Origin: Acidobacteriaceae bacterium
Lineage (GTDB): Bacteria; Acidobacteriota; Terriglobia; Terriglobales; Acidobacteriaceae
DNA: 64,000 nt
Direction: 5' to 3'
Assembly (NCBI GenBank): GCA_025462735.1
Contig: JAOAPC010000010.1
Location: forward strand, 124,001 to 188,000
The notes under the pieces: generated by a model
What the model saw: the letters and a program-made list of their open reading frames with translations, nothing else
What the model was told of the DNA's origin: nothing
Databases searched by the model: none
Program-made: the position numbers and the translations under genes
Part shown: positions 13,177 to 55,827 of the stretch, piece by piece
Numbering within the stretch: the stretch's first letter is position 1
How the letters are laid out: every line of letters starts with the position of its first letter

Positions 13177-13283
13177 ACCTGAGTATGATCACCTGGTGAA
13201 TCGTTGAGTGTTCGGTTTACGATGAATATATCGAACTCTGCGTTTACAGTCCTTTAACAATGCTGCACCGCAGCCGAATACCG

Positions 13284-13323
13284 CCTTAAGCCAACCTTAA
13301 GCCAACTTAGTGTGGAGTTAACT
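13284..13323 (+). promoter_or_regulatory. 11-bp tandem direct repeats before a membrane-protein gene
   Basis: CCTTAAGCCAA occurs twice in perfect tandem (13284-13305), followed by a partial third CTTA. A TTAACT hexamer at 13318-13323 could be the -10, only 7 bp before the ATG at 13331. One-helical-turn direct repeats placed over the -35 are typical of OmpR/PhoB-family response regulator sites. Confidence 0.4.
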
Positions 13324-49662: not shown

Positions 49663-50505
49663 GTGATCACCGATTGCCACATTCACATCCAGCCGCTGCA
49701 TATGTTTCATCCGCATGCTTTGGAGCTGATAAAGAAACGAAGGCCGAATTTCGAGCAGATCGTCGAGTTCACTCGTTCTCCGAAATCATTCCTCAAGTAT
49801 TTGGACGCTGCCGGCGTGGACCGGGCGGTGCTGATCAATTACGTTGCGCCGGACGTGATTGGCTTTAGCTCAGAAGTGAACCAATTCATCGCGGATTATG
49901 TGAAGGCGGACCCAAAGCGCCTGATTCCGTGCGGCGGCGTACATCCCAGGCAATCTCGCGATATCGAATCGGAGATCGAACAAATCCTGCGGCTGAAACT
50001 CCGCATGATCAAGATCCATCCTCCGCACCAGCTCCTTTTCCCTAACGACTATCTGAATGGAGTCAAGGAACTTGAGATCATCTATCGCTCCGCCGAAGCG
50101 AATGGCATTCCAGTCATGTTTCACACCGGAACTTCAATTTTTCCCGGCGCTCGCAACCGCTATGGCGATCCAATTTTCATCGACGATGTCGCAGTCGATT
50201 TCCCCAAGCTGAAGATCATTCTCGCGCACGGAGGCCGGCCGTTGTGGATGCAGACGGCATTCTTTCTTCTGCGGCGGCATCCCAACGTGTTTCTCGACAT
50301 TAGCGGAATTCCGCCTAAGTCCCTACTCAAATATTTTCCCCGCCTGGATCAGATCGCAGCAAAAACTCTCTTCGGCACCGACTGGCCCGGGCCCGGTGTA
50401 CCCGAGGTAAAAGCGAATCTCGACGATTTTCGTGCGCTTCCGCTAAGTGAAGAAACTCGGCAGCAGATTCTTTCGAAGACAGCCGCGAGAATTTGGGCGG
50501 AATAA
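49663..50505 (+). CDS. Amidohydrolase-family metal-dependent hydrolase
   Basis: 280 residues from a GTG at 49663. Amidohydro_2 pattern: DCHIHIQP at the start (HxH), IPVMFHTGTS (about 151-160), IILAHGGRP (about 186) and LFGTDWPGPGV (about 238), where the Asp completes the metal site. Members hydrolyse or decarboxylate small cyclic or aromatic acids; the substrate is not clear. No signal peptide. A decayed copy of its last 120 bp lies beyond the next gene. Confidence 0.85.
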   Translation: MITDCHIHIQPLHMFHPHALELIKKRRPNFEQIVEFTRSPKSFLKYLDAAGVDRAVLINYVAPDVIGFSSEVNQFIADYVKADPKRLIPCGGVHPRQSRDIESEIEQILRLKLRMIKIHPPHQLLFPNDYLNGVKELEIIYRSAEANGIPVMFHTGTSIFPGARNRYGDPIFIDDVAVDFPKLKIILAHGGRPLWMQTAFFLLRRHPNVFLDISGIPPKSLLKYFPRLDQIAAKTLFGTDWPGPGVPEVKANLDDFRALPLSEETRQQILSKTAARIWAE

Positions 50506-50591
50506 ACTCATCATTTCACCACGCGCGCTTTTCGCCTAAAATAACCATCCGTCGGATCAATAGTAGCCGGGACTTTTTAGGAGGGACGATT

Positions 50592-51611
50592 TTGCGACGA
50601 CCGCTGAACGTTTACATTACGACGATATTGGCTTTGTGTGCCCTGCTGTCGAACGCGCAGGAGAAGTTACCACTAAAGTTGATCACAACAACCCCGATGC
50701 CGGGTTTCATCGGTGATTTCGACCACTTTGGCTTAGACCGCAAAGGCAACCGCCTTTTTCTCGCGGCTGAGGAACACAAGACAGTCGAGGTGTTCGACCT
50801 CCGGACGGGGGGGCGGATTCATAGTATTGAGGGCTTCGGGCAGCCGCTAATGATGGTTTATTTGCCCGAGCAGAACCAGTTGGTCGTGACGGACGGAGGT
50901 GATAGCGCGGTTCATCTTGTCGATTGCAAGAGTTACAAGATTATTAAAACCATTAAGTTGGGTGAGGGCGTAGATCACGGCGTGCTTAATCCAGTGAATC
51001 ATTACTACTACGTGGAGAGCGGAGGCGGGTCCAATGCTCCCACGCATGTTCTCGGCATAATTGACACGAAGTCGTTTAAACACGTCGGCGACATCACCGG
51101 ACTGCCCGGAAGTTCTAATGAAGGAATGGTCATCGATCACGCTGGCAAGAAGTTGTATGTAAACCTCACGGGTACGGACGAGATCGGCGTCGTTAGCCTT
51201 GACACTCGCCAGCTCGTCGCCAAGTGGCCCTTGCCTAACGCGCACGTAGCCCATGCGATAGTGCTTGATGAAACCGAGCATCGAATTTTTATCGCGACCC
51301 GCCAGCCACCACAGTTCATCGTTTTTAATACCGATACCGGTAAAGTCGTGACTTCTCTCCCGTGCGTCGGTGTCAACAGTGACATGTCGTTTGATATCGC
51401 GCGTAAACGAATTTATGTGACTGGAAGTGAAACGGCGTCTGTCTTTGAACAGCTAGATGCGGACCATTACGAGCACATCGCCGAAGTGCCTACTGCTTAC
51501 CGTGCCAAATCCTCAATTTTTGTACCCGACCTGAAGCGGCTCTATGTCGCAGTTTCAGGTAAAGGTAAGCCCGATGCAAAATTGGAGTTGCTAATTTACG
51601 AAGTTCAATGA
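50592..51611 (+). CDS. Secreted YncE-like beta-propeller protein
   Basis: 339 residues from a TTG at 50592 preceded by AGGAGGG at about 50579-50585. A short signal peptide (YITTILALCALLSNAQ) is followed by seven-blade YVTN/YncE-type repeats (KTVEVFDLRTGGRIHSIEGF, SAVHLVDCKSYKIIKTIKLG, DEIGVVSLDTRQLVAKWPL, FIVFNTDTGKVVTSLPC). Such proteins are periplasmic binding platforms without catalytic residues. It lies between the amidohydrolase and a decayed copy of the amidohydrolase tail, so it may have arrived by insertion or recombination. Confidence 0.82.
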   Translation: MRRPLNVYITTILALCALLSNAQEKLPLKLITTTPMPGFIGDFDHFGLDRKGNRLFLAAEEHKTVEVFDLRTGGRIHSIEGFGQPLMMVYLPEQNQLVVTDGGDSAVHLVDCKSYKIIKTIKLGEGVDHGVLNPVNHYYYVESGGGSNAPTHVLGIIDTKSFKHVGDITGLPGSSNEGMVIDHAGKKLYVNLTGTDEIGVVSLDTRQLVAKWPLPNAHVAHAIVLDETEHRIFIATRQPPQFIVFNTDTGKVVTSLPCVGVNSDMSFDIARKRIYVTGSETASVFEQLDADHYEHIAEVPTAYRAKSSIFVPDLKRLYVAVSGKGKPDAKLELLIYEVQ

Positions 51612-51773: not shown

Positions 51774-51852
51774 TCGGTTGGTAATTGCCGCTAATGTTCG
51801 AAACCAGACAACTCTGAGGGCACAGAGTGTCGCTAGGTTTTTTTCATCTGCT

Positions 51853-51897
51853 ATTCACACTCCATTCACACTCCGTTTATTCTGTGGTCTTTAAAAT
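51853..51897 (+). promoter_or_regulatory. Pho-box-like tandem repeats and -10 of the TonB receptor gene
   Basis: ATTCACACTCC occurs twice in perfect tandem (51853-51863, 51864-51874), followed by a degenerate third half (TTTATT, 51876-51881). TAAAAT at 51892-51897 is 10 bp further on. Direct repeats of 11-bp period ending about 10 bp before a -10 is the arrangement of PhoB/PhoP-type activator sites. Confidence 0.5.
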
Positions 51898-51957
51898 TCG
51901 GCCATTCCATTCAGCATGAAACAGAGTCGGCGCTTAGGCCGAAAAGGAGACTCTCCC

Positions 51958-54801
51958 ATGACTCGCTTGCGCGTGCTAGCGGTGGTTTGTCTGATCAGTC
52001 TTGGTTTACTTCATAACTTTGCAGCCGCACAAAGCGGTCGGAGCGGAATCGTTGGCCACGTGAACGACTCCGCCGGAGCAGTCGTTCAACATGCCAGGGT
52101 GGAACTCCAGCCCGGCGGCATAGTCGCAACCACCGGCGACACAGGAGATTTCACGATCTCAGACCTTGCCCCGGGAGACTACACGCTCACGGTCTCATAC
52201 GTCGGTTTCTCTGTTTTTTCTAGCAGAGTAAGGGTCGGGGCCGGAGAACCGGTTCGGGTGAACGCGGTCCTACAACTCGGCACTCAGAATGAGTCAGTGA
52301 CCGTGCATGCCGACCGGCAAGGGGGAGAGGCCGAGGCCCTGGACATTGAACGTACTGCGGACAACATCGTGCAGGTGCTACCAGCGGACGTGATCACCAG
52401 CTTGCCTAACACTAATATCGCGGACGCCCTAGGCCGCCTGCCCAGCGTTTCGCTGGAACGTGACGAGGGAGAGGGCAAGTACGTTCAGATTCGCGGCACC
52501 GAACCTCGCCTAAGTAACGTAACTGTAAACGGGATTCATTTGCCGTCTCCTGAAGGTGTACGCAATGTGAAGCTGGACGCGATTCCAGCGGACCTGGTCG
52601 AATCTGTGGAAATTAACAAAACACTGTCCGCAAATCAGGACGCTGACGCCATCGGAGGGTCAGTAAATCTAGTTACCCGGTCGCCCGCAGATCAACCATA
52701 CGTTAGCTTGATGGGAATGGGCGGGTATACGCCAATCACCGGCGGTCGGGAGCTCCATCAGTTCGCAGGAACTGCCGGACAACGGTTTGGTCAGAGCAAA
52801 AAATTTGGCGCGCTGTTCGGCTTCAGTTACGACTACAACGCGCGCGGAATTGACGATTTGGAACCTGGGCCGGCGATCAACACGTTCACGCCAGACAACG
52901 GAACTGTGTTCGTTGGGCCGCCCACTGCGGATCTTCGCAACTATCACTATGATCGCAGCCGCTACGGATTCGATGGCGATCTTGACTACAGATTGGGAGA
53001 AATGTCCAGTGTTTACCTGCGCGGCCTTTTCTCGCACTTTAACGACAATGGAGAGGACTGGATCTACAGTCCAGCCATCAATGTCTTCCCTTCCAACCTT
53101 TCTGATCCCACAACTAACACTTGTGGCCTTACGAACGCGACCGCATTTGGCAATCCGACTGGTTGCGGCGGCGTGGGTTTCAAAGATATCTATCGCAAGC
53201 CTGCTCAGCAGCTTGTCAGTGTCCAGGCTGGAGCGCGGCATGCCTTTGGGAAGACGCTCTTGATCTATGAAGCAGCGCTTTCTGAGTCCAGTTACACGGG
53301 TGGTTTTTCATTTTCCGGCTTCGATGGGCGGGGTGCCGCTGACAACAGCGTGGCGTTTGCAGTGGACACGAGAAATCCCTTCGTTCCCAAATTTCCGGTA
53401 CTTAACGGCGTCAACATTTATGATCCCGCGGCATACACGCTGGCCTTTGCTGATACTGAAAAAGACGGAATTTTTGAGCGCGACGTTGTCGGAGACATAT
53501 CTTTGAGCAGGCAGTACTCCCTTGGAGGCCATTTCAGCACCTTCGAACTCGGATTCAAAGGATGGGATGCCAGTAAGACATCGGTGGTGGATAGGGAGAA
53601 TTTCAACAGCGCTGGCGGCCAGCCTATGACCCAGTTCCTGGGCAACTACAGGGATAATAATTACTACTTCCACCAGCTCACATACGGACCAACGACTTCA
53701 TTCAATAAAATTCGCGCAGCGCTGGAACCAGGAGGCACGTCGCCGGATCTAGGTACCAACATTCCCAATGATTGGGACATTAGTGAACGCATCTGGGCTG
53801 GTTACGCGATGGACACTATCAACCTGGGCAATTTCCGACTCCAGGCTGGAGTTCGCGTTGAATCCACTTCGGATGACCTCTTGGGCAACACGTTCACCAA
53901 TCAAATCAATCAATTCGGACCTGTGTCCAAGGCCCACAGCTACACTGACGTATTTCCGAGTGTGCAGGCGCAGTATCGCCTCGATTCCGACACGATTCTG
54001 CGCGCGGCCTACGGCATTGGTATTGCACGGCCCAACTTTCAAGACATCGCACCGTACCAATCTTATGATCCAACGGCCTCAAATTTTCCCGTGACCGCCG
54101 GCAATCCTAACCTTCTGCCGACTCGCGCCCAGAACTTCGATTTGCTCGCTGAGCACTATTTTGGATCTCTCGGCATAATCCAAGGCGGAGTTTTCTACAA
54201 ATCTTTGACGAACCCTATCTATTTTGTGGATTCACAGGTTCCTCCAGGATTCCCGAATGCGGGGTTGGGGGAAGTCGCGCCCATCAATGGACCAAGCGCT
54301 CACATTGTTGGTTTTGAAGCAGCGTGGCAACAGCGGCTCACGTTTTTGCCAGGGGCTCTGAACAGCATGGGCGTGAGCGCCAACTATGGACACACAACCT
54401 CCCGAGCCAGCTTTCCGGCTGGCGCAGGCCGAACAGACCACCCGACACTGCTGCGCACGGCACCCAACAATTGGAACTTCGACGTGACTTATGACAAGAA
54501 AGCCGTTTCTGCACGTATGGGACTCTCTCACAACGACGCCAACCTTTGGTCGTACGGCGGCAGCAATGCTAAGGACCCGAGCGGTGACCTTTACCTTTAT
54601 CCCCACACTCAGGTCGATGCGCAAGTCAGCTATTGGATTCCCCGCGCGCGTGGTCTGCAGGCAATCGTATCCGGGCTGAATCTGAACAACGAAGTCTTCG
54701 GATTCTATCTCGGCGCCGAGCGTTATCCTATCCAGCGCGAGTATTACAGTCGGACTTTCTCGGCGGGTCTACGGTGGACGTTGGGAGGCGAGCCGCACTA
54801 A
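51958..54801 (+). CDS. TonB-dependent outer-membrane receptor
   Basis: About 947 residues from the ATG at 51958, which follows AAAAGGAGA. Signal peptide ending AAAQS; a carboxypeptidase-regulatory-like domain (GIVGHVNDSAGAVVQHARVEL, about 28-110); a TonB-box-like ESVTVHA; a plug domain with VQIRGTEPRLSNVTVNG and INKTLSANQDADAIGGSVNLVTR; then a long beta barrel ending in an aromatic GLRWTL segment near the C-terminus. The plug resembles the Xanthomonas/Caulobacter receptor class, which imports diverse nutrients. An in-frame ATG at 51916 is less likely. The phosphoesterase behind it and the repeats in front suggest phosphorus-related uptake. Confidence 0.93.
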   Translation: MTRLRVLAVVCLISLGLLHNFAAAQSGRSGIVGHVNDSAGAVVQHARVELQPGGIVATTGDTGDFTISDLAPGDYTLTVSYVGFSVFSSRVRVGAGEPVRVNAVLQLGTQNESVTVHADRQGGEAEALDIERTADNIVQVLPADVITSLPNTNIADALGRLPSVSLERDEGEGKYVQIRGTEPRLSNVTVNGIHLPSPEGVRNVKLDAIPADLVESVEINKTLSANQDADAIGGSVNLVTRSPADQPYVSLMGMGGYTPITGGRELHQFAGTAGQRFGQSKKFGALFGFSYDYNARGIDDLEPGPAINTFTPDNGTVFVGPPTADLRNYHYDRSRYGFDGDLDYRLGEMSSVYLRGLFSHFNDNGEDWIYSPAINVFPSNLSDPTTNTCGLTNATAFGNPTGCGGVGFKDIYRKPAQQLVSVQAGARHAFGKTLLIYEAALSESSYTGGFSFSGFDGRGAADNSVAFAVDTRNPFVPKFPVLNGVNIYDPAAYTLAFADTEKDGIFERDVVGDISLSRQYSLGGHFSTFELGFKGWDASKTSVVDRENFNSAGGQPMTQFLGNYRDNNYYFHQLTYGPTTSFNKIRAALEPGGTSPDLGTNIPNDWDISERIWAGYAMDTINLGNFRLQAGVRVESTSDDLLGNTFTNQINQFGPVSKAHSYTDVFPSVQAQYRLDSDTILRAAYGIGIARPNFQDIAPYQSYDPTASNFPVTAGNPNLLPTRAQNFDLLAEHYFGSLGIIQGGVFYKSLTNPIYFVDSQVPPGFPNAGLGEVAPINGPSAHIVGFEAAWQQRLTFLPGALNSMGVSANYGHTTSRASFPAGAGRTDHPTLLRTAPNNWNFDVTYDKKAVSARMGLSHNDANLWSYGGSNAKDPSGDLYLYPHTQVDAQVSYWIPRARGLQAIVSGLNLNNEVFGFYLGAERYPIQREYYSRTFSAGLRWTLGGEPH

Positions 54802-54876
54802 GCACAGCTTGTGCTCAGCTGAAAGCCTGACCTAACATTTGTTCAGGTCTCAAAAAATTAATGACGAGGTGGGCTT

Positions 54877-55827
54877 TTGAACACACGTTCTCTTGCATCG
54901 TGGTCGCATTATTCCGTAGCGCTGTGCAGTTCGTTGATCCTGGTATTCTTCGTGGTCGGAGCATCGTCCTTTTCCCCAGCCGCCGACGACACTAAGCCGG
55001 CAGAGAAGAGTGTCGCCAGTTCTAACCCAGTTTTCGTCGGCGCTGGAGATATCGCCAGTTGCGACGATCTTTCGGGCGCATACGCGACTGCCAAGCTGAT
55101 CGAAAAAATTCCCGGTACTGTTTTTGCGGTCGGCGACCTTGCCTATCCCGGAGGAACCGATGAGGACTTCGCCAACTGCTACGGCCCTACCTGGGGACGA
55201 TTCAAAGACCGTACGCATCCTGTGCCGGGGAATCACGAATACAAGAACGCCGGCGCATCCGGCTACGTTCACTATTTCGGTGCAGCGGCGGGAGATCCAA
55301 CGAAGGAGTACTACAGCTACGATGTGGGGCAGTGGCACATCATTGCGCTGAACAGCGAGTGCGCCCAGGTTGGCGGCTGCGGCGCGACCTCAGAGCAGGC
55401 GAAGTGGCTACAGCACGATCTTACTGATCACCCAGCCGGGTGTACTCTTGCCTACTTTCATCGTCCGCTGTTTAGTTCGGGAGTGGCGCATGGCGCTGAT
55501 CCAGAGGTAAAACCCCTTTGGGACATCCTGTACCACGCCGGCGCCGACGTTGTGATCAATGGCCACGATCACGATTACGAACGGTTCGCGCCGCAAGACC
55601 CCAACGGCAAAGCCGAACCCCAGCATGGGATTCGCGAATTCGTCGTCGGCAGCGGGGGAAAGAATTCGCATCGCGTTTTTGGCTTGCCTCAACCTAACAG
55701 CGAAGCGCGCAATGCCGACACTTATGGAGTGCTGAAGCTCACGCTTCATCCCAAGAGCTACGACTGGGAGTTCGTTCCAGAACAAGGAAAGACGTTTACT
55801 GACTCCGGCACCGGGACCTGTCACTGA
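54877..55827 (+). CDS. Secreted metallophosphoesterase (purple acid phosphatase-like)
   Basis: 316 residues from a TTG at 54877 with GAGGTGG upstream. Signal peptide SLILVFFVVGASSFSPA. Calcineurin-like metal ligands appear in order: VGAGDIASCD, AVGDLAYPGG, VPGNHEY, LAYFHRPLFSS and INGHDHDYER. Acts outside the cytoplasm on phosphomonoesters. 75 bp after the TonB receptor with only a weak stem between them (54826-54847), so probably the same operon. Confidence 0.9.
   Translation: MNTRSLASWSHYSVALCSSLILVFFVVGASSFSPAADDTKPAEKSVASSNPVFVGAGDIASCDDLSGAYATAKLIEKIPGTVFAVGDLAYPGGTDEDFANCYGPTWGRFKDRTHPVPGNHEYKNAGASGYVHYFGAAAGDPTKEYYSYDVGQWHIIALNSECAQVGGCGATSEQAKWLQHDLTDHPAGCTLAYFHRPLFSSGVAHGADPEVKPLWDILYHAGADVVINGHDHDYERFAPQDPNGKAEPQHGIREFVVGSGGKNSHRVFGLPQPNSEARNADTYGVLKLTLHPKSYDWEFVPEQGKTFTDSGTGTCH

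Follow-up and report, generated by a model that had tools for sequence, protein, structure and literature searches.

We identify in the genome of a soil-type acidobacterium (Acidobacteriaceae) a pair of adjacent genes, encoding a TonB-dependent outer-membrane receptor and a purple-acid-type phosphatase, that we judge likely to form a PhoB-activated phosphorus-scavenging operon. The pair lies in a 64,000-nucleotide stretch (the window, G000:C13:124001-188000) of a 97% complete genome of 4.36 Mb in 24 contigs, and is preceded by a tandem-repeat array that the first-pass annotation had read as a Pho box. Sequence comparison supports this regulatory reading, with like arrays preceding pstS both in this genome and in 29 foreign genomes. 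Because the same promoter tag also precedes phosphate-uptake genes, the receptor–phosphatase pair is probably induced by phosphate starvation, being switched on at phosphate depletion to scavenge organic phosphorus.

A four-unit repeat array precedes a receptor–phosphatase gene pair

The first gene (51958–54801, + strand) encodes a 947-aa TonB-dependent receptor with matches to TIGR01782 (445.5 bits, cut-off 310), PF13620, PF07715 and PF00593, and its better start is the ATG at 51958, which has GGAG 8 bp before it, rather than 51916. After a gap of 75 bp on the same strand, a second gene (54877–55827) encodes a 316-aa metallophosphatase matching PF00149 (Metallophos; 40.2 bits, cut-off 21.5). 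The family matches bear out the first-pass annotation of a TonB receptor followed by a calcineurin-like phosphatase, and we infer that the two genes are co-transcribed. Among the matches listed, the closest named relatives of the phosphatase come from Acidobacteriota metagenome-assembled genomes (MAGs; 77–78% identity), and the protein of a Candidatus Sulfotelmatobacter MAG is 71% identical. A beta-propeller protein gene (50493–51611) lies directly before the receptor gene, and another lies directly after a receptor homologue at locus L082.

Upstream of the receptor gene, two perfect copies of ATTCACACTCC occupy 51853–51863 and 51864–51874 and a degenerate unit, TTTATTCTGTG, begins at 51876, much as the first-pass annotation had described. 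That annotation missed a further in-phase unit upstream, TTCATCTGCTA at 51843, so that the array comprises four 11-bp units arranged head-to-tail and in phase, starting at 51843, 51854, 51865 and 51876. The resulting predicted PhoB operator, TTCATCTGCTA-TTCACACTCCA-TTCACACTCCG-TTTATTCTGTG, spans 51843–51886 on the + strand. The proposed -10 hexamer, TAAAAT at 51892–51897 (+ strand), lies 16 bp downstream of the last unit's first position; the hexamer is present as first annotated, but its assignment as the exact -10 is uncertain, with TATTCT at 51878–51883 as an alternative. A promoter scan returned TTCACA-18-TATTCT (51854–51883, 9/12) but gave no -35 partner for TAAAAT, at an overall count of 2 promoter-like sites compared to 2.2 in shuffled sequence.

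We scored the array with a 38-bp matrix whose training set comprised 29 pstS promoters from other genomes: 73 of 90 genomes gave matches, and from these we took the 30 best loci and left out the genome's own. Its seed was an 11-bp TTCAC/GTAAC/GTAAC scheme that we derived from pstS upstream regions after viewing the window; we applied the matrix to selected stretches and covered the whole genome by pattern searches. Training forces a best site in each sequence, and the 29 training promoters score 20.4–44.1 bits. The window site scores 22.6 bits, the highest among about 128,000 positions on both strands of the window, and an exact calculation gives P = 7e-9 per position at this score, so that one would expect 0.0009 such sites in the window and 0.06 genome-wide. 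The maximum in a Markov simulation of 3 million positions was 16.9 bits.

These expectations bear on the possibility that the array is a set of chance repeats without function. Such an origin might be suggested by the only other place in the window where 11 bp are exactly duplicated in tandem (13284–13305, AACCTTAAGCC region), and by the chance-level frequency of the two-unit core described below, but with 0.0009 sites expected in the window at 22.6 bits, and with arrays recurring at homologues in which the repeat letters differ from those of the window, we regard chance as extremely improbable. The second-best independent matrix site in the window, TTTACAGTCCT-TTAACAATGCT at 13243–13280 (+ strand; 12.6 bits, 0.15 expected in the window), lies ~88 bp before the gene of a 453-aa membrane-type protein without a Pfam match, and the 13284–13305 duplication is 22 bp downstream of this site.

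The pst-phoU operon carries a similar promoter

Like repeats had been anticipated at the phosphate genes pstS, phoU and phoA/phoX, of which searches found no phoA or phoX here. We found one copy of pstS in the genome at the cut-off used, with the upstream sequence TTAACACGTGG-TTCATCGTCCT-TTAATTATGTG followed by TTTAAT, and the offset from the last unit to the -10 is 16 bp at this promoter and at the receptor promoter alike. The own pstS site, which was excluded from training, scores 13.2 bits, a modest value alone, given that chance would yield 7.5 sites per genome at that score. Across the 30 pstS upstream regions, most contain phased units such as TTCAY, TTCAC, GTAAC and GTAAC before a -10. 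The phoU gene shares a gene run with pstS.

PstS, PstB and PhoU score above their family cut-offs, and pstC and pstA are assigned from gene order. PhoB-like and PhoR-like genes follow in the same run; both score below their curated cut-offs (232.7 compared to 296.2 bits, and 317.5 compared to 334.2 bits, respectively), and in each case the assignment is still the best equivalog hit. A second PhoU-like gene (L027, G000:C11:353725; 103 bits, under the TIGR02135 cut-off) lies away from the pst operon and adjoins a CHAD/Ppx-like/HD-domain gene.

The array recurs upstream of some receptor homologues

Of 120 genomes, 17 contain receptor homologues, this one among them. A site of at least 10 bits lies upstream of seven of the 17 distinct foreign receptor genes (23.5, 22.3, 14.4, 13.3, 12.2, 11.4 and 10.1 bits) and is absent at the other ten, compared to ~0.03 sites expected from the simulated rate. 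Receptor homologues have phosphatase neighbors at L029, L034 and L038; in a further set of 80 named loci (80 kept of 235), the receptor match ends at most 500 bp from the phosphatase in eight and lies 1.2 kb away in L103. Six receptor–phosphatase loci of this named set have readable upstream DNA, giving, with the window, ten upstream regions altogether. Receptor starts in homologues were extrapolated from alignments.

We compared these regions to 535 controls, upstream regions of mechanical open reading frames among which are the window promoter itself and further sites that are likely genuine. A four-unit array placed all ten receptor–phosphatase upstream regions in the top 5% of controls, and a three-unit array placed nine there (L104: 0.054); among receptors with no phosphatase neighbor in sight, 5 of 14 reached the top 5% for four units. 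A spacing of eleven fitted best in 7 of 10 receptor–phosphatase regions (L104 ties), in 5 of 14 receptors without a phosphatase neighbor and in 30 of 30 pstS regions. With the 38-bp matrix, L116, which is near-identical to L111, was alone among six distant receptor–phosphatase pairs in reaching 9 bits.

All 11 distinct phosphatase upstream regions that we scored, stand-alone phosphatases included, fell below zero with the same matrix; because some receptor homologues carry the box and these regions do not, the box by this measure accompanies the receptor gene and not the phosphatase family as such. Close phosphatase homologues also occur in records titled Chloroflexi, Actinobacteria and others (L101–L180). 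Receptor matches were found in just ten loci, every one titled Acidobacteria or Acidiferrum-type, and many of the loci are truncated.

Perfect strict-pattern matches in the genome precede phosphorus genes

We searched the 4.36 Mb genome with patterns of differing strictness. We rejected the two-unit core TTCAC-N6-TTCAC as a genome-wide marker (8 matches compared to 7 for the reversed pattern), and a loose three-unit pattern was likewise not enriched (16 compared to 18 reversed). Matrix scoring of 13 of the 14 distinct loose-pattern places (C13:261441 was left out) separated four that reach 13 bits, namely the receptor operon, pstS, C11 and C17, from nine at 4.6 bits or less, including C18:281175 at 4.6 bits. 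A strict three-unit pattern gave five perfect matches at four promoters, compared to 0.26 expected, and all four promoters precede phosphorus genes: pstS, the receptor operon, a gene pair at C11:60464 (17.3 bits) encoding a PF04101 glycosyltransferase and a PlcP-like PF12850/PF00149 phosphoesterase, and a PF01663 phosphodiesterase gene at C17:44004 (13.9 bits). The C11 glycosyltransferase matches MGDG synthase below the cut-off. The strict pattern was composed after looser searches had shown the earlier matches, and its result is therefore support and not a blind test.

Allowing up to one mismatch gave 14 matches compared to 9 reversed, with the eight distinct one-mismatch places scoring 19.8, 11.1, 8.9, 8.8, 7.6, -1.8, -4.6 and -5.0 bits. 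The best of these (L194, G000:C20:156058, - strand; 0.30 expected in the genome) is a Pho-type site before a STAS-domain gene that outscores three of the four perfect strict-pattern promoters, and it may be real, though the STAS gene has no obvious phosphorus role. Lower-scoring places precede a 615-aa protein that appears barrel-like by eye and for which we found no informative match (C12:221536, 11.1 bits), a GT2 gene (C12:461617, 8.9 bits) and a PF04185 phosphoesterase gene (C15:297898, 8.8 bits); because 19 chance sites per genome are expected at 11.1 bits and 50 at 8.8 bits, we claim none of these places.

OmpR/PhoB-family response regulators as a class bind tandem repeats, so that another member of this family could read the array and the operon could answer a different signal, a reading in keeping with the sub-cut-off score of the PhoB-like protein and the strong site at the STAS gene. 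We consider it distinctly improbable, as pstS promoters were the sole source of the motif and every perfect strict-pattern match falls at a phosphorus gene.

The second gene encodes a purple-acid-phosphatase-type enzyme

By family, ligands and fold, the latter from a predicted structure, the second gene encodes a purple-acid-phosphatase-type enzyme. Residues D58, D87, Y90, N119, H195, H230 and H232 are invariant in 10 of 10 phosphatase homologues and provide the D, D, Y, N, H, H, H set that we take to be the seven metal ligands of purple acid phosphatases. A PDB profile search matched 16 sequences, which are purple acid phosphatases and a diphosphonucleotide phosphatase. In the structural model (mean pLDDT 77.4), Foldseek ranks 1–31 are purple acid phosphatases or phytases, with TM scores of 0.58–0.65 by query length and a best E value of 1.5e-12. 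The window enzyme shares the seven ligand positions and fold with plant and animal purple acid phosphatases but is a short, single-domain bacterial protein of 16–24% identity, and its first motif is GDIA in contrast to GDxG, presumably the usual first motif of these enzymes. A hydrophobic, signal-like N-terminus, recognized by eye, suggests that the phosphatase is probably exported. At E 0.001, searches for the PhoA, PhoD and PhoX families yielded nothing in this genome, whereas control genomes do match. A metagenomic purple-acid-type phosphatase is reported to have phytase activity (PMC6355987), which makes phytate a candidate substrate.

The cargo of the receptor allows two readings within Pho control. 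TonB receptors classically carry iron complexes, TIGR01782 membership leaves the substrate unspecified, and purple acid phosphatases, as the names of the PDB matches indicate, need iron; the receptor might thus bring in a metal, a siderophore or a cofactor, such as iron destined for the purple-acid-type enzyme, with the phosphatase acting independently outside the cell or in the periplasm. We find this unlikely, as a receptor gene that shares a Pho box with a phosphatase gene better suits an organophosphate, and in Flavobacterium phosphate depletion induces TonB transporters that occur with phosphatases (PMC8115612). The cargo that we infer for the receptor is an organophosphate or a complex of one.

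Discussion

In the model we propose, scarce phosphate would cause the PhoR-like kinase to phosphorylate the PhoB-like regulator; the genes of both lie behind pst-phoU. The regulator would then occupy the four repeat units head-to-tail, substituting for a -35, and recruit RNA polymerase to the -10 just downstream of the array. The transcript would yield the outer-membrane receptor and the probably exported phosphatase together; the receptor would probably import organic phosphate or a metal–organophosphate complex, and the phosphatase would release phosphate for the Pst transporter.

Several elements of this model are already known elsewhere: Pho boxes built of tandem 11-nt repeats, TonB receptors in a PhoB regulon, and phosphatase-associated TonB transporters that low phosphate induces. 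A review defines the Pho box as tandem 11-nt direct repeats (PMC4415409), the arrangement of the window array and of the pstS promoter here; the window unit core TTCAC resembles the GTTCACC it quotes for Streptomyces coelicolor, whereas the operator predicted here has a TTCAY/GTAAC consensus in three to four units. We found no mention of Acidobacteria in the available text of that review. TonB receptors, phosphatases, a phosphodiesterase and phospholipid-degrading genes all belong to the Caulobacter crescentus PhoB regulon (PMC11208175); in this it resembles the acidobacterial set, but it belongs to a different phylum and was measured, whereas the window operon is predicted. Flavobacterium has phosphate utilisation systems (PusCD), in which genes for TonB transporters adjoin phosphatase genes and are induced when phosphate is low (PMC8115612). 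The window operon has the same adjacency but differs in its purple-acid-type enzyme, and we found no SusD family in the receptor, the phosphatase or five neighbor proteins. The same source describes a PF04101 glycosyltransferase and a PF12850 PlcP as lipid remodelling genes in phosphate-depleted Flavobacterium, and the C11 pair matches these by Pfam. A pst/pho gene set is described in Gemmatimonadetes (PMC10875860). For Acidobacteriota, a literature search across titles and abstract openings, among the records listed, showed neither a Pho box nor a TonB operon under Pho control.

Being able to read the Pho operator of an acidobacterial lineage would make its phosphate regulon predictable from genomes. 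Acidobacteriota are abundant in soils, where much of the phosphorus is organic. More tentatively, the receptor and purple-acid-type phosphatase under a Pho box could constitute a SusD-less phosphate-utilisation system of Acidobacteriota, serving as a main route by which a lineage without PhoA, PhoD or PhoX would obtain organic phosphate from soil, perhaps in iron-bound or inositol form. In a genome in which the usual alkaline phosphatases were not found, the operator points to the receptor–phosphatase pair and to lipid-remodelling-type genes, and the result is a short gene list for low-phosphate work.
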